Of a DNA stretch of 64,000 bases, positions 50,534-64,000 are shown one piece after another (within the stretch, counting starts at the first letter, position 1; every line of letters starts with the position of its first letter). The stretch covers positions 1,612,001-1,676,000 of the forward strand of contig NZ_CP049887.1 of the NCBI RefSeq assembly GCF_011304195.1. The letters run 5' to 3'. The stretch comes from Vagococcus hydrophili. GTDB lineage: Bacteria > Bacillota > Bacilli > Lactobacillales > Vagococcaceae. Under the pieces are notes generated by a model, which ran no database searches, was not told the origin of the DNA, and was given only the letters and a program-made list of their open reading frames with translations. The position numbers were made by a program, and so were the translations under genes.

Positions 50534-51013
50534 ATGAAAATAAAAATAATCGCTGTTGGTAAATTAAAAGAGAAATATTTAAAACAAGGCATCGCAGAAT
50601 ACCAAAAAAGACTAGGAAAATACTGTAAATTCGAAATAATCGAAGTCCCTGACGAAAAAGCCCCAGAAAATCTAAGTGACACAGAGATACTACAAGTTAA
50701 AGAGAAGGAAGGACAAAAAATCCTATCGAAAATTTCGGATGGTGACTACTTATTTGCGCTAGCGATTCAAGGAAAAGAAATCACTTCAGAAGGTTTTGCA
50801 GAGCAGATTGATTATTTGAGTACAAGAGGAACCAGTTCTTTTGCTTTTGTAATTGGTGGGTCATTGGGATTGTCTGATGAAGTGATGAAGAGAAGTGACG
50901 CGCAGATATCATTTGGGAGATTGACGTATCCTCACCAATTGATGCGACTGATTTTGACGGAGCAAGTTTATCGATGTTTTAGGATAATAAAGGGAGAACC
51001 TTATCATAAATGA
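50534..51013 (+). CDS. rlmH: 23S rRNA (pseudouridine1915-N3)-methyltransferase RlmH
   Basis: 159 residues, the usual length. SPOUT fold with [13 protein letters not shown] (SAM knot) and the C-terminal [14 protein letters not shown]. It methylates pseudouridine 1915 in the ribosome. In staphylococci the same gene (orfX) ends in the SCC integration site, and that core sequence is kept here. Confidence 0.97.
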
Positions 51014-51018
51014 TGAGG
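50995..51018 (+). other. SCC-type attachment sequence at the 3' end of rlmH
   Basis: Reads GAACCTTATCATAAATGATG, against the staphylococcal orfX site GAAGCATATCATAAATGA. The 12-base core TATCATAAATGA is identical. Part of the match is forced by the conserved C-terminus YHK-stop. Accessory genes begin 26 bp later. Confidence 0.6.
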
Positions 51019-51043
51019 TTATTTAGATTAGGAGGAAAGTATT

Positions 51044-52069
51044 GTGAATGAATTTGATATAATAATACCAAATGAATCAGAGTTAGTAATCGATGTAACA
51101 GATAACGGGCTATATGATTATAATTTTGAAGCTTTTTCGTTAAGCGGTTTGCAAGAAGTAGCTAATGCTCAAGTAAATAGTAAGATATTGAATAAGTTTA
51201 CTAATATGATTGTGGGAAATACCTCAACATTAGGAGAATTAAAAAATCTATTGGATAGTCAAGAAGCTGACTATGTAGCAGATTTGTCTAAAGTAGCAAA
51301 AGAAAAATTGGCTAGTGGTGAGTGGAAATTAGGCGTAAGAGCTAAAACAGGAGAAACATATGCAATAATTAAAGATGCGGCAACTGGAAGAAGCCAAAGT
51401 TTTGTAACTTTAAAAGAAAAGGTAACGACTGATCTAGGTATGCTACCGCAGTTAGCAGCAGTTCAATATCAATTGAAAGAAATATCAGAACAGATACAAA
51501 CACTAACTCAAGCAGTTACTAGAGTGGAACAAGGTCAATATGATGACAGGTATGCAGGATTCATTAGTTCTAGACAAATGGTGTTAGAAGGAATGTCCGT
51601 ATCCGATGAAACGATTAGGAAAAACTTATTGTCTTCAGCAATAAACTTGAATAATGAAACGATTGGAAAATTAATGTTTTCAATTCATAGAAATTCATTA
51701 GAACTAATCGACGATAAGACAAAAACAAAAGATATAATTAGGTTAGAAAAACATTTAACAGAATCATTAAGTTATCTAAATGCATCGGTTCAACTGAACG
51801 TAGTAGCATATACAACATTAGGTGAAGCGAAAGCAATATCAACAAGCCTTAGAAATTATAAGGCATTTGTTGATCAAACCTTATTAAGTGATAAGACCAA
51901 AGACAATCGTTCTATTGCATGGTTAATTGATAATCATCGAAAAGAAGATGATGGACAATTTTTAGAGATATCACAAAAAGTATCAGAAAAAATAGAATCA
52001 TTAATCATAAATAAACCGATAGAGATTGGAGAAGAAGGAAATGAACGGATCGAAGAAGAAAGTTTGTAA
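51044..52069 (+). CDS. unknown protein, first gene after rlmH
   Basis: 341 residues, GTG start 8 bp after GGAGG. The N-terminal 120 residues are mixed alpha/beta (IIIPNESELVIDVTDNGLYD). A coiled-coil stretch follows (QLKEISEQIQTLTQAVTRVE, about 145-165), and the rest is helical. No membrane helix, no nuclease or nucleotide-binding motif. The last codons overlap a small zinc-ribbon/membrane gene, so the pair is probably one functional unit. Function not recognised. Confidence 0.78.
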   Translation: MNEFDIIIPNESELVIDVTDNGLYDYNFEAFSLSGLQEVANAQVNSKILNKFTNMIVGNTSTLGELKNLLDSQEADYVADLSKVAKEKLASGEWKLGVRAKTGETYAIIKDAATGRSQSFVTLKEKVTTDLGMLPQLAAVQYQLKEISEQIQTLTQAVTRVEQGQYDDRYAGFISSRQMVLEGMSVSDETIRKNLLSSAINLNNETIGKLMFSIHRNSLELIDDKTKTKDIIRLEKHLTESLSYLNASVQLNVVAYTTLGEAKAISTSLRNYKAFVDQTLLSDKTKDNRSIAWLIDNHRKEDDGQFLEISQKVSEKIESLIINKPIEIGEEGNERIEEESL

Positions 52070-52220
52070 GTATCCTAAATGTCAAAAAGAGATACCAGGA
52101 GAAAAAGGTGTTTTCTGTAGCCATCATAAAAAATCAGTAAAAGAGAAAAGCGAAGCTGCCATAACTATATTAGGAGCTACTGGGGCTTTTTTATTGACTG
52201 TTATTAAGAAAAAGGATTAA
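52041..52220 (+). CDS. small zinc-ribbon and membrane protein
   Basis: 59 residues. The start ATG at 52041 lies after GGAGAAGAAGG and overlaps the previous gene by 29 bp in another frame. The N-terminus has CKYPKCQK and VFCSHH, a Cys/His cluster able to bind zinc; the C-terminus has one short hydrophobic helix (AAITILGATGAFLLTVI) before KKKD. It could anchor or regulate its larger partner at the membrane. Family not recognised. Confidence 0.7.
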   Translation: MNGSKKKVCKYPKCQKEIPGEKGVFCSHHKKSVKEKSEAAITILGATGAFLLTVIKKKD

Positions 52221-52288
52221 AAGTTAAAAGAAGAAAGCTATTCGGGGTCGATTTCTGTATTTTGAACAAAATAATTAAATGAAATTAA

Positions 52289-52329
52289 AGAGAGAAAACA
52301 TTAGAAAAGTGATGGTTTTTCTCTTTTTT
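52289..52329 (+). terminator. terminator used as group II intron target
   Basis: AGAGAAAACAT pairs with ATGGTTTTTCTCT and is followed by six T. The intron begins at the next base. Confidence 0.8.
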
Positions 52330-54188
52330 GTTCGCCCAGCATGGGCGAACTCTAACGGGTGAAAGTCCCTAACACGACCTAATAGTGGTAAGTGTATAGC
52401 CGAAAGCAAGGGTGTCCATGGTGACGTGGAATCTGAAGGAAGCTCTAGGTAAAACTCTGGTCTGACGAATAGAAATCACATAGGAGGCTACATACGAGGA
52501 TAAAACTGCAAAAGAAGTTAAAGTCCGATAACTATTGAAATAATCGTATGGAGTATATGTGGCAGATAGATGGAGTGAAAGAGTTCGCACCTTAACTGGG
52601 GAGGTCTCATCATCTTATCCCAAAATCTTATGGCAACATAAGGCTGAGATATGAGAAGTCAGCAGAAGCCGTAGTAGTGAAGACGGTTAGTGAAAGTTAA
52701 CTAGAGCGAAGGGCTGAACAATTTTAATGTTATCAAAAATTAATCACTGGAAGAGGAAATAGACTACTGACGAAAAGTTTTAAAGTAGATACCGACTTTA
52801 CAGAATTGAAAGGAAATAACAACTATGTACACAGAAACAGTTTTAGAACAAATCGTGGATAGAAAGAATCTGAATCAAGCATTTAAGCAAGTCAGACGAA
52901 ATAAAGGTGCCGAAGGTGTGGATGGTATGACTATTGAAGAAACGGCGAGTTATATAACGTCTAATAGAAAAGAAATAGTCACCCAAATCAGAAACAGAAA
53001 GTATAAACCATCCCCCGTTTTAAGAGTAGAAATACCGAAGCCAACTGGTGGTGTCCGACTTTTAGGTATACCAACAGTAAAAGATCGTGTGATACAGCAA
53101 GCTATATCTCAAGTGATTTCCCCCAAGTTTGATAAGGAGTTCAGTCCATATAGCTATGGATTTAGGCCTAACAAACAAGCTGAAATGGCCATCCAACAAT
53201 CGTTGGATTACTTTAACGAAGGCTATGAATGGGTTGTAGATATTGATTTGGAGAGATTCTTTGATACTGTGAATCATGATAGATTAATGAATTTAATCTC
53301 ACGAGTGATAAAAGATGGTGATGTCATTTCTCTGATTAGAAAATTTTTAGTTAGTGGTGTACAAGTCAACGGACAAGTTAAGCCAACGGATATAGGTACA
53401 CCACAGGGCGGTAATTTATCTCCTCTACTAAGTAATATTATGTTAAATGAATTGGATAAAGAACTTGAAGCAAGACAGCTTCATTTTGTCAGATATGCAG
53501 ATGACTGTTTAATTATGGTGAAAAGTGAAATGTCAGCGAGAAGAGTCATGCGCTCAGTAACAAAATTTATCGAAGAGAAATTAGGACTAATTGTGAACGT
53601 CACAAAATCCAAAATAATTAAAGCTGGAGACTCAGAGTTGAAGTATTTAGGTTTTTCTTTTTATAAAGGAAAGGATGGCTATCAAGCTAGACCACATCAA
53701 GCATCAGTTGAAAGCTTTAAGTTTAAATTAAAAAGGCTGACACGTAAAAATTGGAGTGTCAGTATCGAGGATAAAATTAAACGATTGAATCAAGTGATAT
53801 TAGGTTGGATTAACTATTTTAAGATTGGAAAAATGAAGAAAAATCTATCGAAGATAGAATCTCATCTACGTTTCCGAGTGAGAATGTGTTTATGGAAACA
53901 ATGGAAAACCGCTCAAAATAGAAGAAAGAATTTAATAAAACTAGGTATGGATAAATATACTGCTTATAAATACAGTCATACAAGTAAAGGCGTAGTGAGG
54001 ATAGCTTATTCATGGGTCATGACTACCACGATGACAAATAAGAGAGTAGCCGAATTAGGACTAATCTCTTGTGTAGAACATTATAGTAAAGTACATAGTT
54101 AATTTAAAATTGAACCGCCGTATACGGATCAGTACGTACGGTGGTGTGAGAGGACGAATAATCAAACATGGTTATTCTCCTACTCGAT
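52330..54188 (+). mobile_element. group II intron, probably class C, with maturase
   Basis: The RNA starts with GTTCGCCCAGCATGGGCGAAC, a perfect hairpin, and continues with GGGTGAAAGTCCC of domain I. After the maturase, domain V spans about 54113-54145: ACCGCCGTA pairs with TACGGTGGT, with a CG bulge and a CGC-type triad. Domain VI is GGACGAATAA/TTATTCTCC, and the 3' end is near 54188. Insertion just after a terminator hairpin, a short maturase without endonuclease and the CGC triad all point to group IIC. The 3' boundary is accurate to a few bases. Confidence 0.88.
52825..54102 (+). CDS. ltrA: group II intron reverse transcriptase/maturase
   Basis: 425 residues. RT motifs: GVDGMTIEE, GIPTVKDRVIQQA, YGFRPNKQAE, DIDLERFFDTVNHDRL, GTPQGGNLSPLLSNI and catalytic YADD at 224-227. 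The maturase X/GIIM domain follows (IKRLNQVILGWINYFKIG). No HNH endonuclease is present, as in class C. The protein looks intact. Confidence 0.95.
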   Translation: MYTETVLEQIVDRKNLNQAFKQVRRNKGAEGVDGMTIEETASYITSNRKEIVTQIRNRKYKPSPVLRVEIPKPTGGVRLLGIPTVKDRVIQQAISQVISPKFDKEFSPYSYGFRPNKQAEMAIQQSLDYFNEGYEWVVDIDLERFFDTVNHDRLMNLISRVIKDGDVISLIRKFLVSGVQVNGQVKPTDIGTPQGGNLSPLLSNIMLNELDKELEARQLHFVRYADDCLIMVKSEMSARRVMRSVTKFIEEKLGLIVNVTKSKIIKAGDSELKYLGFSFYKGKDGYQARPHQASVESFKFKLKRLTRKNWSVSIEDKIKRLNQVILGWINYFKIGKMKKNLSKIESHLRFRVRMCLWKQWKTAQNRRKNLIKLGMDKYTAYKYSHTSKGVVRIAYSWVMTTTMTNKRVAELGLISCVEHYSKVHS

Positions 54189-54242
54189 GTGTTTAAAGGA
54201 GTGCTTAAAATAGTGCTCTAATCGTTTTGAAAGTAATGGCTA

Positions 54243-54554: not shown

Positions 54555-57500
54555 ATGAAAATAAAGTTGATAGATAATAAGGGGGATAATACCCTAGAAA
54601 AATTAATAAGTGATAAAGTAACAAAACATTCAAAAATCAGTATTCAAACAGCTGCCTTTTCAATTTTTGCATTCCACTCATTACAAAAGGAAATTAAGCG
54701 TTCAAAAGAATTACGTTTGGTTCTGACCAAAACTTTCTTGGAAAAAGAAGAAACTAGTTTTTTGAAGCGTTATGAAATTGCGCAAAACGAAGAAAACATT
54801 TCTGGAAATAAATATGAAATCAAGCTCAAAAACAAGATGAACACCGCTTTTATTGCTCGCGAAACAGCGCGGCTAATCGAGGAGAAGGTTAAGGTTCATC
54901 AGCTTGGACCAAACCAAAGTGCTTTAGATGCATTATTGATTGAGAACAATGACAATGAATCTAGCTTAGTTGTTCCAGCAATGTTTAAGTTTACTTCAGA
55001 TGGTCTTGGAATTACAGAGTCAAATAGTGTTTCATCAATGACAGCAATTGAAGGAGCTGATCCTAACTATTTCAAAGGAATTAAAGCTGACTTTGATAAT
55101 GTTTGGAACGATCCTAAAAAATCAAGGGAAATTACTAATAAGGTTCTTGAGAAGGTAAGAACAATCTATCAGGAAAATTCACCAGAATGGATTTATTTTA
55201 TATCACTGTACCATATTTTCCATGACAAACTAAGTGAACTAGATGAACAAGATATAGCTCCAGACGGATCAGGATTTAAAGACTCAATCATTTGGAATAA
55301 ACTCTACCAATTCCAAAAAGATGGTGTGATGGGATTGATACGTAAACTAGAAAAATATAATGGTGCAATCCTTGCTGATTCAGTTGGGTTAGGTAAGACA
55401 TTCTCGGCATTAGCAGTTATTAAGTATTTTGAACTACAACGTAAACGAGTACTGGTTCTCGCGCCCAAACGTCTACGAGATAACTGGACTCTTTATACTC
55501 GTCCAGATGTACGGAATGTTTTAATGGATGATTACTTTCATTATACGGTTTTAAATCATACTGACCTTAGTCGTTATAAAGGTGAGAGTGACGGTATTAA
55601 TTTGAATACTCTATTATGGTCTGATTTCGATTTGGTTGTCATAGATGAATCACACAATTTCCGTAATAATGATACAAGTGTTAATCGCGAAACTAAAACA
55701 CGTTATCAACGGCTGATGGAAGACGTCATTCAGAAAGGTCGGAAAACAAAAGTATTGATGCTTTCAGCTACACCAATTAATAATCGAATGAATGATTTGA
55801 AAAATCAGATTGGTTTTATTACAGAAGGTAAAACAGATGGCTTGTCTAAACATGGTGTTGAGGATATTGATACAACTTTACGTTTAGCACAACAAGCATT
55901 TAATCAGTGGATGGAACTTAAAGAAAATGAACGAACTACTCAGAACTTCCTTGATAGAGTGAATCCAGATTATTTTAAATTACTAGATATGCTGACAATT
56001 GCACGTAGCCGGAAACACATTGAAAAATACTATGATACTACTTCACTGGGAGAATTTCCTGAACGATTAAGTCCAATTACCAAGAAATCTGATATTGATG
56101 CATCAGGAAAATTCCCTGACCTGCAAACTGTATATGACTCAATTGGTTACTTAAATATGGCAATGTATCAGCCTTTACAATATGTGCTTCCTAATAAACG
56201 TAGATATTATGAGGAACTGTATGATACGAAGGTGAAAGAAGGTAAATCTTCGTTTAGACAATTAGATCGTGAAAAAGCCTTATCTAAGCTAATTCGTGCG
56301 AACCTGTTTAAGCGATTAGAAAGTTCAATTTATTCTTTTGGTTTGACAATTGATCGAATGGTTACTGGAATCAAAAGCATACTTGACCGTATTAGTGAAC
56401 AACAATCCGGCCATATAGAGAAGCCAAGTATTACGGATATTGACGATGAGGATCTGGAAAGTACCTTTGATGAACAAGCGGTGGGAACGAAAACCAAGAT
56501 ATTAATTGGTGACATGGACTTACTGAAATGGAAACAATCATTAAATGAAGATTTGAAAATATTGAAGGAATTACAGGAAGCTACACATCAGGTTACACCT
56601 GAAAAAGATGCTAAGCTGATGGACTTAATGAAGGTTCTAAAAAATAAGTATGAGAATCAAGTCAATAGCAATAACAAGAAAGTTATTATATTCACAGCTT
56701 ATGCAGACACAGCTAATTATCTATATGAGAATTTAGTTGATAAAGTGAAACGAGTGTATAGTCTGAATTCTGCTTTGGTTACTGGAGGTTCAACGTCTAA
56801 CAAAACAAACATGAAGGATGTAGCAGTTAGTGATATGAATGATATATTGACTAACTTTTCACCACTTTCAAAGGGACGAGACCAGATTAATCCGAATGCC
56901 GTAGAAGAAATTGATTTATTGATTGCTACAGATACCATTTCCGAAGGTCAAAATTTGCAGGATGCAGATTATTTAATCAATTATGATATTCATTGGAATC
57001 CAGTTCGGGTTATTCAACGTTTCGGGCGTATTGATCGTATCGGTTCTCGCAATAAACAAATTCAGTTGGTAAATTTCTGGCCAAATGTTGATTTGGATAC
57101 TTATCTGAACTTGGAACAGCGCGTCAAAGGACGAATGGTTATGTTAAACACAGCAGCGACTGGTGAGGATGACTTGTTGAATATTAATTCCAACAAAGAA
57201 ATGAATGACTTAAAGTATCGTAAGAAACAATTAGAGCAATTACAAAAACAAGTTATTGATTTAGAAGAAGTGAATGGTGCAATTTCTATCACAGATATGA
57301 CATTTAATGATTTTAAAGCAGATTTGCAGAATGCTTTGAAGGAACATGAGAAGTTGTTGAATGAGGCACCACTTGGTATGTACGCTATCACTGATAATAC
57401 TAATTTTCCTGAAGCTGAACCAGGTGTTATATTAACGTTAAAACAGCAAACTAATGACTTAAGGCAAGAAAATAGTATCTTACCTTATATTGTTATTTAT

Positions 57501-57812
57501 ATGCGCATGGATGGAACAGTTAAAATTAATTACATGTATTCCAAACAAGTATTAGATTTCTTTAAAAAATTAACAGTTGGAAAAAAGACTGTTAATCAAC
57601 CTCTTGTAGATGAATTCTATGCGGAAACGAATGGAGGGAAATATATGAGTACTTATTCTGAAATCTTGAGTAAGGCGATTGAAGCGATTCGTGGTAAACA
57701 AGATGAAGTAGGAATGGGCTCATTATTCTCACCTGGGGGTACTAGTATACAAACTGAACTGTTGGACGATTTGGATGATGTTGAGTTAATTTCATTTTTG
57801 ATTATTAGGTAG
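54555..57812 (+). CDS. SNF2/DEAD-like helicase of a defence operon
   Basis: 1085 residues. The first ~110 residues resemble a degenerate phospholipase D-like domain (KISIQTAAFSIFAFHSLQ). Superfamily 2 motifs follow: Walker A ADSVGLGKT (274-282), DESH (364-367), LSATPINNR, then DTISEGQNLQDAD and QRFGRIDRIGS of the C-terminal RecA lobe. This is the long helicase found upstream of some type III-like restriction operons. It is probably an ATP-driven DNA translocase. AGGAGATACTC precedes the ATG. Confidence 0.88.
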   Translation: MKIKLIDNKGDNTLEKLISDKVTKHSKISIQTAAFSIFAFHSLQKEIKRSKELRLVLTKTFLEKEETSFLKRYEIAQNEENISGNKYEIKLKNKMNTAFIARETARLIEEKVKVHQLGPNQSALDALLIENNDNESSLVVPAMFKFTSDGLGITESNSVSSMTAIEGADPNYFKGIKADFDNVWNDPKKSREITNKVLEKVRTIYQENSPEWIYFISLYHIFHDKLSELDEQDIAPDGSGFKDSIIWNKLYQFQKDGVMGLIRKLEKYNGAILADSVGLGKTFSALAVIKYFELQRKRVLVLAPKRLRDNWTLYTRPDVRNVLMDDYFHYTVLNHTDLSRYKGESDGINLNTLLWSDFDLVVIDESHNFRNNDTSVNRETKTRYQRLMEDVIQKGRKTKVLMLSATPINNRMNDLKNQIGFITEGKTDGLSKHGVEDIDTTLRLAQQAFNQWMELKENERTTQNFLDRVNPDYFKLLDMLTIARSRKHIEKYYDTTSLGEFPERLSPITKKSDIDASGKFPDLQTVYDSIGYLNMAMYQPLQYVLPNKRRYYEELYDTKVKEGKSSFRQLDREKALSKLIRANLFKRLESSIYSFGLTIDRMVTGIKSILDRISEQQSGHIEKPSITDIDDEDLESTFDEQAVGTKTKILIGDMDLLKWKQSLNEDLKILKELQEATHQVTPEKDAKLMDLMKVLKNKYENQVNSNNKKVIIFTAYADTANYLYENLVDKVKRVYSLNSALVTGGSTSNKTNMKDVAVSDMNDILTNFSPLSKGRDQINPNAVEEIDLLIATDTISEGQNLQDADYLINYDIHWNPVRVIQRFGRIDRIGSRNKQIQLVNFWPNVDLDTYLNLEQRVKGRMVMLNTAATGEDDLLNINSNKEMNDLKYRKKQLEQLQKQVIDLEEVNGAISITDMTFNDFKADLQNALKEHEKLLNEAPLGMYAITDNTNFPEAEPGVILTLKQQTNDLRQENSILPYIVIYMRMDGTVKINYMYSKQVLDFFKKLTVGKKTVNQPLVDEFYAETNGGKYMSTYSEILSKAIEAIRGKQDEVGMGSLFSPGGTSIQTELLDDLDDVELISFLIIR

Positions 57813-57822
57813 GTGAGCTAAT

Positions 57823-58536
57823 TTGGACACGAATGACATAATAAAATGGTGGGGTTTTCCAAGTGCTACGATAATCAATCGTAATTTGCCAAAAAAACAA
57901 ATATATTCTCATATGAAAAATACTAAGGATAAACAATTTTTACAAAATTTTGTTCAAAGTATCTATTTGTTGGCTAGTCTCAAAACTGAAAATACACGTA
58001 TTGAAGTGTATGAAGATGATAAGGTTCTCTACCAAGAAATTCAATTTCTTTATGTGGAAATGAAGGATAAAGGTGAATCGAATAAAATCTATAAAATATT
58101 GACACATTTAATTCCATATCCATTAGTAATTCTTTTTGAGGAATCAGACTGCTTTACTATCTATACTGGTCGTTTTGAAAGAAATTCAGAAGATTTCTTG
58201 AAGTTAGTAAATATATATCCATCACCAGTTTATCAAAAAAGAGATCTTGAGAACGTCTTGCAACAACTTACTTTGATTGACTTACCAAGACAGAACTTTA
58301 AGACGTTTTATGACGGACTACGTAATGAGATTATTTCAGCAACAGCTAAGTTACAATATGATGAAAATATTGGTAGTATCACTGCTGAAGAGAAAGACCA
58401 GCTGGATAATTTGAAAAAACAAATTGAGGATTTGCGAAATTCAATCAAAAAGGAAAATCAGTTGAATCGTAAGATTGATATGCAGATGAAGTTGAAAAAC
58501 TTGAAAGATGAACTTTCAAGTAAGCTAAATCAATAA
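57823..58536 (+). CDS. DUF4391-like protein of the restriction operon
   Basis: 237 residues, TTG start 10 bp after the helicase gene. The N-terminal ~170 residues are compact (IKWWGFPSATIINRNLPKKQ), and the last 50 form a coiled coil (LDNLKKQIEDLRNSIKKE). Size and gene order match DUF4391 proteins, which commonly lie between a helicase and a type III methyltransferase. Role unknown; the coiled coil suggests an assembly subunit. Confidence 0.72.
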   Translation: MDTNDIIKWWGFPSATIINRNLPKKQIYSHMKNTKDKQFLQNFVQSIYLLASLKTENTRIEVYEDDKVLYQEIQFLYVEMKDKGESNKIYKILTHLIPYPLVILFEESDCFTIYTGRFERNSEDFLKLVNIYPSPVYQKRDLENVLQQLTLIDLPRQNFKTFYDGLRNEIISATAKLQYDENIGSITAEEKDQLDNLKKQIEDLRNSIKKENQLNRKIDMQMKLKNLKDELSSKLNQ

Positions 58537-58571: not shown

Positions 58572-60400
58572 ATGATGAAAGAAAGAAATAACCAACTATT
58601 AGAAGAAGTGTCTTCTAGTTCGCTTAATATCACTGAACAAAATATTGAAAAAATGAAGGATTTATTTCCTGAAGTTCTAACTGAGGAGAAAATTGACTTT
58701 GATAAGTTACGTTTGGTTCTTGGAGATGAAGTTGAGACAGAATCAGAACGTTATAGTTTTAATTGGAATGGTAAAAAAAAGACCATCCAACTGGCACAAC
58801 AACCAACAGTTGCAACGCTTAAGCCGAATAAATCAAAATCAAAGAATTGGGATGAAACTAAAAATCTTTATATTGAAGGAGATAACTTAGAAGTCTTAAA
58901 GATTTTACAGAAATCATATGCAAATAAAGTAAAACTTATATATTTGGATCCACCTTACAACACTGGAAGTGATTTTGTATATAAGGACAGTTTTTCTGAT
59001 TCACTTGATAATTACTTAGAGTCTACTGGTCAGTCGAATGAGGCAGGAAAAAAACTTGCAACGAATTTGGAAACCAGTGGACGGTATCATACGGATTGGT
59101 TGAATATGATGTATCCGAGATTAAAGTTAGCTCGTAACTTATTGACTAAAGATGGAGTAATTTTTATTAGTATTGATGATAACGAACAGGGAAACTTAAG
59201 AAAAATTTGATTACTCAAATTGCTCATAAGGCTCGTGCGTCTGTTTCTAATGACAAAATTATTAGTCAAAATCATAATTTTATTTTACTTTACGCCAAAA
59301 ATATTGATGTTGTATTTAATAAACGTTCTGAAGTTGGATTAGACCCAGTGCTAGAGGGATTTAGTAATCCAGATGCTGATTCTCGTGGAGACTGGAAGGG
59401 TACTCCAGTGGACGGACCAGGTGGTGCTAAGAAAGGAAACCCGTACTATGAATTTATGGGAGTTGAGGGATATTTTAGATACTCTAAGGAAACAATGCAA
59501 AAATTATATGATGATGGATTGATTGTTAGGACAAAGAATGGTTTACAACGTAAATATTTCTTAACGGATGCTATAAAATCTCGGAAAACGGATACAAGCT
59601 GGTGGGAAAATGGTGGCTATACTACTAATGCAACAAGAGAGTTGAATGGCTTGATGGGTGAGAAAACATTTGACACTCCGAAACCAGTTGAATTGATTGA
59701 AAGAATGTTAAAACTTTTTACTAATAATGATAAAAAAGCGATAGTGCTTGATTTTTTCTCTGGATCTGGAACTGTTGCTGAGGCTGTGATGAAAATAAAT
59801 AAAGAAGATGCAGGTTTTAGGAAATATATACTTGTTCAACTGCCAGAAGTAATTGCTGAAAAGACAGATGCTTTTAATGCAGGATATAGAAAAATTCCTG
59901 AAATCGCTGAAGAACGTATTCGTCGGGCTGGAGACAAGATAATAGACAAAAATCCTGATTTAACAGGGGAGCTTGATATTGGATTTAAAGTTTTTGAACT
60001 AGAAAGATCAAATCTCAAAAAGTGGAATTCTGACCCTGAGGATTTGGTGACTATGTTTGATTCAATTCAAGACAATCTTGAAGCGGGTTCAACTGAAGAC
60101 GATTTAGTTTTTGAAATTATGTTGAAGCAAGGGTTAGAGTTGACATTGCCAATTGAAAAAATCATAGTTGGTGATGCTAATATCTATAAAATTGCATATG
60201 GTTCGTTGTTTATTGTTTTAGGTAAAAATATTACAAGTAATGCTTCTAAAAAAATTGTTGAGTTCATAAAAAATGAAGCACTGGAAGACGTTGCAATAGT
60301 GTTACAAGATACTGGCTTTATAAGTGACAGTGAGAAGTTGAATTCCATTGAGATTTTGAATACAGGTGGAGTGGATTATAACGATATTTTAAGTATTTAA
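58572..60400 (+). pseudogene. mod: type III-like DNA adenine methyltransferase (Mod), frameshifted
   Basis: It reads in two frames: 58572-59210 (212 residues) and 59207-60400 (397 codons from a TTG). Part 1 holds YIEGDNLEVLKIL and catalytic DPPY at 126-129 (motif IV). Part 2 holds the target-recognition region and FSGSGT (motif I), the order of beta-class N6-adenine methylases. Part 1 ends SIDDNEQGNLRKI-stop, while homologues continue with CDEIFGE-NF before the sequence that opens part 2. About 10 residues are therefore missing, and 3n+1 bases (31 fits) were lost. AAAAATTT at the junction suggests deletion between short repeats. Two interacting polypeptides cannot be excluded. Confidence 0.85.
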
Positions 60401-60420: not shown

Positions 60421-63411
60421 TTGAAAATACAATTTGACACGCTTGATTATCAGACAGATGCCGTTAATAGCGCTGTTCGGATGTTTGAAGGTCAAACGAT
60501 AAAAGAATCGAATTTTACAATTACGAAGGACAGTCCACAAGGAACTTTGTTTTCCAGTGATGGTATCGGAGTTGGTAATCGTGTGATTATTAATGAAGAA
60601 CAGATGTTGAAAAACATCAATAAAACACAGATTCTCAATGGAATTGTTCCTAGTGATGTTTTATTTGGGAACAATAGTTCCTTTCCTCAGTTCAATATTG
60701 AGATGGAAACCGGAACTGGTAAAACCTTTGTTTACTTAAAAACCATTCTAGAGTTGAACAAACAATATGGATTTATAAAATTTGTTATTGTTGTGCCGAG
60801 TATTGCAATTAAGGAAGGTGTACTTAAGACTTATCAAATCACAAAGGATTATTTTAAGAACCAGTACAATGGTGTGATTTATGACCTGTTTATGTTCGAT
60901 AGTAGTAAACTTGATCGAGTACATTCATTTGCATCAGCTAATACTATTGACATTATGGTTACGACAATTCAGTCTTTCAATAAGGATACGAACGTCATCA
61001 ATCGAGAAAATGACCAACTTTCTGGTGCACGCCCTATCGACTTGATTGCCGAAACGCGACCAATTGTTATTATAGATGAACCACAATCAGTTGATAATAC
61101 GGATTTGGCAAAAGCTGCGCTATCAAGCCTTAATCCGTCTGCTGGATTCCGTTATTCAGCAACCCATCGTGATATTACTTATCCGAAGATTTATCAACTG
61201 GATGCGGTGGAAGCGTATGACAATCAATTGGTTAAACAAATTGAAGTAGCCGGCATTGAAATGGGTGAAGACGGCAACCGTGCACATTTGAAATTGATTG
61301 AGGTGAAAACAGGTAAGAATGGAATTAGTGCCAGAATTGAAGTTTACAAAAAGACCCGTAGTGATGCGGATAAAATGATTATTACTTTCAAAGCTGGTGA
61401 TGACATGTTTACAAAGACCAAACTTCAAGTTTATGATGAAGTGGGGTTTATTCAAGATATTGATGCTACACCTGGTTTTGAGTCAGTTACATTTTCGGGT
61501 AACCCAGAAAAGATAACTCTTGAATCAGCTACCTTGGAAGATGAAGCAATGAAGCGTGCTCAAATTGCTAAGACTATTGAAGAACACTTGAACAAAGAGT
61601 TGCAATTCAAAAAGGCGAAACACCGGATAAAAGTTTTGAGCTTATTTTTCCTAGATAAGGTTGAAAACTATCGTATTTATGATGAGGATGGCAATTCTAA
61701 TCTTGGACGCTATGCGAGTATTTTTGAAGAAGAATATGAGCGTCTGATAAATTTGTCGAAATACAAAGAATTGAATGATGTAAATGTACCGATTTGCGAA
61801 GTGCATGATGGATATTTCTCAGTTGATAAAAAAGGAAAATTGAAAAATACCAAAGGTGATACACAAGCTGATGAATCAACATATGAAATGATTATGAAGA
61901 ACAAGGAAGGTCTACTAACTTTTTATGATGAAGAAAAAAATAATACAGCAAAAGCAAATAAAATTCGCTTTATTTTCTCTCATTCTGCCTTGAAGGAAGG
62001 GTGGGACAATCCAAACGTCTTCCAAATTGCAACATTGATTGAAACGAAAGATACGATTACCAAACGACAGAAGATTGGTCGTGGGTTGCGTATTGCAGTT
62101 AACGAAGATGGAGAACGTGTACCTGGATTTACAGTAAACACATTGACAGTTATGGCTAATGAAAGTTATAAAGATTTTGCTGAAGGACTGCAAAAAGAAT
62201 ACGAAAAAGATGGTGTTAGTTTTGGGGTATTCAATAAAGACAGTTTTGCAACCATCATTGTTAAGTACGATGAAGTGACTGAAGAAATGGAAATTCTTGG
62301 TAAAGAAAAGTCTGAGCAACTATTCAATTACTTTAAAGATGAAGGATATATTGGAACTTTAGGACGGGCAACTGATAAGTTAAAACAAGCGATTACCGAT
62401 CAGGAAATTGAGGTGCCAGAAGAATTTAATGAAGTGGTAGTTCAAATTTTGGACGTCGCTAAGTCTAAGGTTAAGAGCCTTGATATCAAGGATATTAAGG
62501 ATAAAGTTGAAGTCAAAGTTGTAAAAGAAGCTTTGGCTGATGACTTCTTGGAACTTTGGAACAAAATCAAGTATAAGACGACTTATAAAATTGATTTCGA
62601 CTCAGACAAGTTAATTGAATTCGCGACTAACGGTAACGAGTCATTTGACAGTGTTAATTCTATCCAAACTCGGAAGGGAACTTACCTTTACAAGAAAGGA
62701 ATGGTTGAAATGAGTCAGGCGGGTGTTAAGGCTGGTGAATCTAATGAAAGTAGTGTACGAGCAACAACGAATGGTGCATACAAGTTACCAGATATTATTA
62801 CTTTCTTGCAGAATGAAACAAGTTTAACTCGTAAGACAATAGTTGCAATTTTACAATCAGTCGATAATCTGGACAGCTTTAAGACTAATCCATTGTCATA
62901 TATGAACCAGGCTTCGAAAATTATTAACGCAATTAAGAATCAACTTATTGTAGATGGGATTGAGTATACTCGTATAGATGATGAGTATGAACAGATATTG
63001 TTTAGCACAGAAACTTTGAATGCCTACCTAGGCGAGAAAGGTAATTCAGTGAAAGTTGATGAGAATAAACATAAAACCGTTTATGACTACGTTGTAACTG
63101 ATTCAAGTATTGAAAAAGAATTTGCCCGAAAAGCTGAGATGGATGATAATGTTAAGTTCTATATCAAGCTACCAGATTGGTTCAAGATTCGTACACCGCT
63201 CGGTCCTTATAATCCAGACTGGGCATTGCTGTATGAAGAAGAAAATGAGCAGCATCTTTACTTTATAGTTGAAACAAAAGGAGACGTGAACTTTGAACAG
63301 TTGCGTCCTCATGAACGAGCAAAAATTATTGCGGGTGAGAAACATTTTAAAGCGGTTGATACTGATATTAGATTTAAACGGGTAAAAGATGAATCAGAGA
63401 TTAGAAGCTAG
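60421..63411 (+). CDS. res: type III-like restriction enzyme helicase/nuclease (Res)
   Basis: 996 residues, TTG start after AAAGGAGATAAAGGCAC. Walker A METGTGKT (95-102), DEPQ box (IVIIDEPQSV, near 218), SATHRD and GWDNPNVFQIATL of the second helicase lobe. The C-terminus has a PD-(D/E)xK nuclease: NPDWAL with Asp933, then VETKGD with Glu951 and Lys953. It cuts DNA after ATP-driven movement when guided by Mod. It looks intact although mod is broken. Confidence 0.93.
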   Translation: MKIQFDTLDYQTDAVNSAVRMFEGQTIKESNFTITKDSPQGTLFSSDGIGVGNRVIINEEQMLKNINKTQILNGIVPSDVLFGNNSSFPQFNIEMETGTGKTFVYLKTILELNKQYGFIKFVIVVPSIAIKEGVLKTYQITKDYFKNQYNGVIYDLFMFDSSKLDRVHSFASANTIDIMVTTIQSFNKDTNVINRENDQLSGARPIDLIAETRPIVIIDEPQSVDNTDLAKAALSSLNPSAGFRYSATHRDITYPKIYQLDAVEAYDNQLVKQIEVAGIEMGEDGNRAHLKLIEVKTGKNGISARIEVYKKTRSDADKMIITFKAGDDMFTKTKLQVYDEVGFIQDIDATPGFESVTFSGNPEKITLESATLEDEAMKRAQIAKTIEEHLNKELQFKKAKHRIKVLSLFFLDKVENYRIYDEDGNSNLGRYASIFEEEYERLINLSKYKELNDVNVPICEVHDGYFSVDKKGKLKNTKGDTQADESTYEMIMKNKEGLLTFYDEEKNNTAKANKIRFIFSHSALKEGWDNPNVFQIATLIETKDTITKRQKIGRGLRIAVNEDGERVPGFTVNTLTVMANESYKDFAEGLQKEYEKDGVSFGVFNKDSFATIIVKYDEVTEEMEILGKEKSEQLFNYFKDEGYIGTLGRATDKLKQAITDQEIEVPEEFNEVVVQILDVAKSKVKSLDIKDIKDKVEVKVVKEALADDFLELWNKIKYKTTYKIDFDSDKLIEFATNGNESFDSVNSIQTRKGTYLYKKGMVEMSQAGVKAGESNESSVRATTNGAYKLPDIITFLQNETSLTRKTIVAILQSVDNLDSFKTNPLSYMNQASKIINAIKNQLIVDGIEYTRIDDEYEQILFSTETLNAYLGEKGNSVKVDENKHKTVYDYVVTDSSIEKEFARKAEMDDNVKFYIKLPDWFKIRTPLGPYNPDWALLYEEENEQHLYFIVETKGDVNFEQLRPHERAKIIAGEKHFKAVDTDIRFKRVKDESEIRS

Positions 63412-63742: not shown

Positions 63743-64000
63743 ATGATTGAAGAAATTGTAGGATTAAGAATAAAGGATTCCATTTTTATAGAAGAAACAG
63801 ATTTAAATTTTTTTACGAAAAAAGAACAACAAGTGGTACGATCTTCGTTAATTTTTGGACGAAATGGTTCTGGTAAGAGTACAATTACTAGGGCAATCAA
63901 CAAAGTGAAAACAGGGGAAGGTAGTGCAGAAATATCAAAGTTAATTGGCTTAGATAGTTCTAATGAAGGGTTGATCAGTGAATCAATTTTTGTATTTAAT
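63743..64000 (+). CDS. AAA/ABC-type ATPase, 3' truncated by window edge
   Basis: 86 residues visible, ATG after GAGGAGTAAAATAA. Walker A GRNGSGKST is at about 39-47, in the SSLIFGRNGSGKSTITRAI context seen in AAA_13-type ATPases, including the PrrC/RloC anticodon nucleases that accompany restriction systems. Other SMC-like defence ATPases share this opening. The effector part lies outside the window. Confidence 0.75.
   Translation, partial: MIEEIVGLRIKDSIFIEETDLNFFTKKEQQVVRSSLIFGRNGSGKSTITRAINKVKTGEGSAEISKLIGLDSSNEGLISESIFVFN

Follow-up and report, generated by a model that had tools for sequence, protein, structure and literature searches.

Which function might be carried by two overlapping genes that lie immediately beyond rlmH in a Vagococcus chromosome? 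In the window analysed here, a stretch of 64,000 nucleotides (positions 1612001-1676000 of the 3.05-Mb chromosome), this pair, referred to below as A and B, is the first feature past rlmH. Our preferred reading, to which we assign a probability of roughly 60% on the basis of sequence and genomic context, is that A-B would be a mobile two-gene module of the defence type (anti-phage or anti-plasmid), which resides together with restriction systems and belongs to none of them. The locus is defined by the following features:

50534-51013, forward strand: rlmH, a core gene with the integration site at its 3' end (RlmH matches in 14/14 Vagococcus genomes)
50996-51020, forward strand: att-like sequence at the rlmH 3' end, GAACCTTATCATAAATGATGAGGTT, with the core TATCATAA, read from the sequence
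51030-51035, forward strand: Shine-Dalgarno sequence AGGAGG of gene A
51044-52069, forward strand: gene A, 341 aa, GTG start, no predicted membrane helix
52041-52220, forward strand: gene B, 59 aa, ATG start, beginning inside A
52287-52326, forward strand: hairpin of an intrinsic terminator at the end of the A-B unit (dG -14.8 kcal/mol, z -3.4 against shuffled sequences)

A preliminary description of this DNA had proposed a 341-residue protein overlapping a 59-residue protein, with a terminator after the pair, and the layout listed above bears this out: both open reading frames are present and overlap by 29 nt, and a GGAG of gene B is found within A (52028-52031). The closest named relative with the pair is Vagococcus sp. 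DIV0080 (locus L025), where the homologue is 92% identical. Compared with DIV0080, gene A has a dN of 0.038 and a dS of 0.134, and the zinc part of gene B has a dN of 0.04 and a dS of 0.81; within A, the N-terminal 75 residues evolve faster than the remainder (dN/dS of about 0.43 vs about 0.21). Purifying selection on both frames implies that A and B are real genes, and together with their conservation across families it rules out chance open reading frames.

Read from its sequence, protein B starts with a putative zinc knuckle (C9-x4-C14-x11-C26-x2-H29), which is followed by a basic linker, a single hydrophobic, Gly/Ala-rich stretch that is a predicted membrane helix (AAITILGATGAFLLTVI), and a lysine tail; the Cys/His cluster and the one membrane helix previously ascribed to B are thus both recovered. 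The three cysteines are invariant in 25/25 aligned B proteins, in an alignment that comprises knuckle-bearing B only and leaves out the cysteine-free proteins. Protein A is composed of a variable N-terminus, a three-stranded sheet (94-125), a helix (134-158) and a helical bundle (168-322), and contains the motif GQYDDRYAGF. Two AlphaFold runs give the same layout, i.e., a helix in the N-terminal region, three strands at 94-125, a weak helix and the bundle at 168-322, in models that are mediocre (mean pLDDT of about 60), and the second run, which used a more diverse alignment, did not yield a better model. Of the coiled coil that the preliminary description had seen in A, only the low-confidence helix at about 134-160 fits, whereas the best-modelled part of the protein is the helical bundle. 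The structure-based search proposed there was carried out on the A models, and no fold match resulted: Foldseek gave nothing with E <0.001 for models of pLDDT ~60, and a viral structure library gave nothing with E <0.01. VIA-align of the models retrieved generic helical bundles only (Z up to 12.8); matches to 14-3-3, TPR-like and designed-repeat proteins reflect generic helical packing and stay below the tool's own meaningful level. The structure comparisons yield only generic helical bundles, and no fold is claimed for A.

Profile searches agree with the earlier statement that no known family could be recognised for either protein. Against Pfam and NCBIfam, A reached no curated cut-off, and B had no match above cut-off, with a weak CxC6 match for the knuckle (19.9 bits vs 27.5). 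In PADLOC 2023, A matched only Csa3 and Csx19, weakly (best E 0.0026), and B had no match. Fifteen relatives of A produced single weak hits in PADLOC, with no family common to more than one member, and sporadic weak hits in Pfam, the best of which (E 7e-5, in 2/15) was to a yeast DASH subunit. Since the Csa3, Csx19 and DASH_Dad1 matches occur in one or two members each, these identities were rejected as helix/coiled-coil noise. Among the PHROGs, there are two weak matches: phrog_31650 with 9/15 relatives of A (best E 1.6e-13), and phrog_32418 with the B protein of the window (E 0.0035). A literature search found no description of the A-B pair.

Among 395 genomes of the order, 29 contain relatives of A, as do three further genomes of the phylum, 14 plasmids (in a search with the window's own protein) and one phage record. 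With identities down to about 20%, the family extends from lactic-acid bacteria to some Clostridia and also to plasmids and prophages. One subfamily of A led to three prophage-like viral contigs; viral contigs scanned with the window's own subfamily and with three other subfamilies or members contained no relative. In the prophage contigs, A-B lies outside the structural genes, either next to a repressor and a recombinase or past the lysis genes.

How closely are the two genes tied to each other? A small B-type frame directly follows A in nearly all A loci, including those of homologues with 20-25% identity, and in the loci examined its start mostly lies at -4 to -60 nt relative to the end of A. 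The typical B relative has a cysteine knuckle, then one hydrophobic helix and then a basic tail. A profile of B gave 17 matches in 295 genomes, 16 of which are located at an A gene or A remnant (one remnant, in genome G191); the 17th is weak and falls within a 212-aa frame. B is thus specific to A, and the two constitute one family in which B practically never occurs without A. The variants of B differ in what they retain: some lack the cysteines and keep the helix (L071-L074, L089), and others lack the membrane helix and combine the zinc knuckle with a long lysine-rich helix (L080, L081 and, by reading frame, L084), which implies that neither the knuckle nor the helix is indispensable in every member.

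The location of the pair in Vagococcus points to mobility. Vagococcus genomes conserve the att-like core at the end of rlmH, and its sequence, TATCATAA, is the same as in staphylococcal (SCC) and enterococcal (ECC) cassette chromosomes. The rlmH site is variable across all 14 Vagococcus genomes examined, with A-B being present there in 2/14, which is in keeping with the previous placement of the pair as the first feature after an att-like site at an rlmH hotspot. Between the window and DIV0080, DNA identity amounts to 45-88% across htrA, the intergenic stretch and rlmH (mostly 70-85% in rlmH and htrA, with rlmH being about 79% identical between the two species), as opposed to 87-100% in A together with the initial part of B; the jump starts at the rlmH 3' end, and identity drops to background within the helix of B. 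By these sequence comparisons, it is the pair itself that appears to have moved, at the rlmH site. In enterococci, rlmH is a known cassette site (ECC), where type I restriction genes are frequent cargo (PMC6222049). As for an SCC-like island, which would be marked by CcrAB and by flanking att repeats at rlmH, the att-like core is there; a pattern search over the window and the ~80 kb that follow gave no second att, and a reading of the list of open reading frames for ~80 kb downstream brought up no ccr recombinase. In another genus, a distant A-B relative (L084) also resides beside rlmH, with a septin/dynamin-like GTPase in between.

Beyond the terminator, the remainder of the window is occupied as follows:

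52330-54190, forward strand: group II intron of 1.86 kb, with a reverse transcriptase ORF at 52825-54102, directly past the A-B terminator
54555-57812, forward strand: HKD/PLD-SNF2 helicase of a restriction operon
57823-58536, forward strand: DUF4391 protein of the restriction operon
58572-60400, forward strand: type III methyltransferase (mod), split into ORFs 58572-59210 and 59207-60400
60421-63411, forward strand: type III restriction subunit (res)
63743-64000, forward strand: start of an ATPase-like ORF that runs past the window; its continuation (L117:1-2172) matches the PADLOC candidate PDC-S06

The preliminary description had put the pair next to the restriction operon, which requires correction, as the 1.86-kb intron separates B from the first operon gene at 54555. 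A copy of this intron with 99.9% identity lies farther along the chromosome, about 45 kb downstream (L118:14672-16538), which indicates recent mobility. Homologues of mod are intact at 637-689 aa, unlike the split gene of the window, where the type III system may be inactive or phase-variable.

Genes involved in restriction or other defence are found in about half of the A-B contexts, and the backgrounds in which they occur are numerous and unrelated to each other. Type III Mod/Res genes accompany the pair in the window and in L019, L098, L038, L089 and L035; type I genes in L022/L104, L080, L081, L091, L096, L087, L027 and HsdS-bearing lactococcal plasmids; McrBC in L023/L103, L076 and L087; GmrSD in L021, L022, L026, L037 and L079, and at 7-8 kb in L090; a BsuBI-type (type II) system in L024; and BREX PglZ together with BrxL in L037. 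An operon-like spacing is seen in several cases: in L076, A and McrC overlap by 4 nt; in L022, 13 nt separate GmrSD from the A gene after it; and in L019 and L038, A comes after Res. Among 26 dereplicated genomes, 8 have a methyltransferase or GmrSD gene within 10 kb of the pair, compared to 0.40 expected (P ~1e-8); the chance level was derived from the places of methyltransferase and GmrSD genes in the A-bearing genomes under the assumption of uniform gene placement, so that the clustering of mobile genes in islands explains part of the enrichment. In the other contexts, again about half, no recognised defence gene is nearby (e.g., in streptococci, L030-L034, L071-L074 and L093-L095), and some homologues stand alone between housekeeping genes. 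A-B is a defence-island gene in that it occurs beside known defence genes above chance. The earlier proposal of a defence or conflict system, which is a probable reading of these neighbourhoods, is hence well supported by context. Counting against a defence module are the contexts that lack a defence gene, the mediocre AlphaFold models with no fold match, and the uneven make-up of B. Matches of both proteins to housekeeping families in conserved, non-island neighbourhoods had been named as the outcome that would speak against it; no housekeeping match was obtained, the neighbourhood is not conserved, and a housekeeping gene pair was dismissed on both grounds.

Some of these neighbourhoods have features of their own. 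A recurring block of HsdS, a GIY-YIG nuclease, a short integrase and A-B is seen in L018, L027 and L099-L101 (lactococcal plasmids and Enterococcus timonensis); in L018, the integrase is kept and the GIY-YIG/HsdS annotation is absent. On a Carnobacterium contig, an IetA-IetS pair lies beside A-B and a GmrSD gene (L026:6346-9642). In DIV0080, the next gene after A-B encodes an EVE and HNH protein (L025:11214-11972), a probable modification-dependent restriction enzyme.

Could A-B be a subunit of one of these restriction systems? In a maximum-likelihood tree built from 38 A proteins, with partner types assigned by us from the neighbourhoods, the partner type changes 19 times (the least possible being 7), and 26 of 200 shuffles gave a number as low, which makes the partner changes indistinguishable from shuffled labels; the type III association alone requires five changes for five rows. 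Partners have thus been swapped across types I, II, III, IV and none, which implies that A-B does not belong as a subunit to any single restriction system. For the downstream type III operon in particular, such a role is ruled out by this partner swapping and by the intervening intron and terminator; moreover, that operon is missing from L025, where the same site holds a copy of 92% identity.

A mechanism at the level of the membrane may be proposed tentatively for the module, whose carriers are plasmids, prophages and chromosomal islands. A, with its helical bundle, would act as a cytosolic sensor or scaffold, and its faster-evolving N-terminus might sense the trigger. B would be its membrane partner: the zinc knuckle could bind A or another partner, and the single Gly/Ala-rich helix would lie in the membrane and bring the complex there. 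The trigger would be infection, possibly upon failure of restriction. Acting at the membrane, the complex would most probably perturb it (abortive infection) or prevent the incoming element from entering. It seems doubtful that A-B extends to a general second line of defence for any restriction system, i.e., a sensor-effector pair that answers the failure or action of restriction at the membrane and would for this reason be exchanged among types I-IV.

A related idea, which we consider unlikely, is that A-B guards restriction, remaining inactive while the co-resident system works and killing or arresting the cell when triggered by phage anti-restriction proteins or restriction failure; PrrC is described as such a guard for its linked type I enzyme (PMC2610378). 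The association of A-B with restriction types I-IV, in several operon-like arrangements, is consistent with a guard, and the swapping of partners is what a generic guard would be expected to show. However, a single A-B type occurs beside enzymes as unlike as type III (in the window) and EVE-HNH (in the 92%-identical L025), which makes a specific protein contact unlikely; many copies also lack a restriction gene in their vicinity, and the mod gene of the window is broken into two frames. The copies that stand alone also count against a membrane tether, in which B would fix A to the inner face of the membrane and A, in turn, would retain restriction complexes or the entering DNA there, for restriction at the point of entry. 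The zinc knuckle and membrane helix of B, the helical scaffold of A and the restriction neighbours could all be accommodated by a tether, but B relatives without a membrane helix speak against it, and we regard this as the least probable of the explanations considered.

B is small, cationic and single-helix, as expected for a membrane toxin, and A could accordingly be imagined as the larger antitoxin of an addiction module that stabilises plasmids and islands, in line with the carriage by mobile elements and the overlapping order of A then B. Yet A is far larger than usual antitoxins, the zinc knuckle is conserved in most B proteins while one B group lacks the membrane helix, and neither protein matches a toxin-antitoxin profile, making such a module rather improbable. 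About equally improbable is a non-defence accessory of mobile elements, with a role in maintenance or an unrelated envelope function, that merely gathers in restriction hotspots. Lone copies, which occur in chromosomes and prophages as well as on small plasmids, would suit an accessory of this kind, and islands do gather unrelated cargo; the excess of restriction-type neighbours (8 vs 0.40) and the repeated operon-like adjacency to restriction genes, however, speak against it.

If A-B defends cells, an unnamed and widespread two-gene system would be added to the phage-defence repertoire of lactic-acid bacteria, in which phage resistance is of practical weight (dairy starters, enterococci, streptococci). 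The indifference to the partner type would then raise the question whether one small module backs mechanistically unrelated restriction enzymes, and which common signal it might answer. New here are the recognition of A-B as one family, its mobility as a unit, its restriction and defence context, and the free exchange of partners.

Among known systems, the lactococcal Abi systems confer phage resistance from plasmids in the same group of bacteria, and their carriers are similar to those of A-B; by comparison, A and its relatives have no Pfam or PADLOC match beyond single weak hits. The PHROG families phrog_31650 (A) and phrog_32418 (B) are unnamed and without an assigned function, and neither the pairing nor the restriction context is part of them. 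With the ECC and SCC elements, A-B shares insertion at the rlmH 3' end and restriction cargo (PMC6222049), but differs in that neither a ccr gene was noticed nor a second att found over ~80 kb downstream, and in that the gene pair itself appears to move. EVE-HNH endonucleases (VcaM4I, PMC7897488) are neighbours of A-B in L025 and no homologues of it. The anticodon nucleases PrrC and RloC are accessory genes linked to restriction systems (PMC2610378) and in this respect a possible model for A-B; however, A has no ATPase or nuclease signature, searches of A, B and the A relatives found no Pfam match to an ATPase or anticodon nuclease domain of the PrrC/RloC type, and B is a protein of 59 aa with a membrane helix. 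Set against these systems, A-B is best classed as a small defence-island module with a membrane component, and not as an established defence system.
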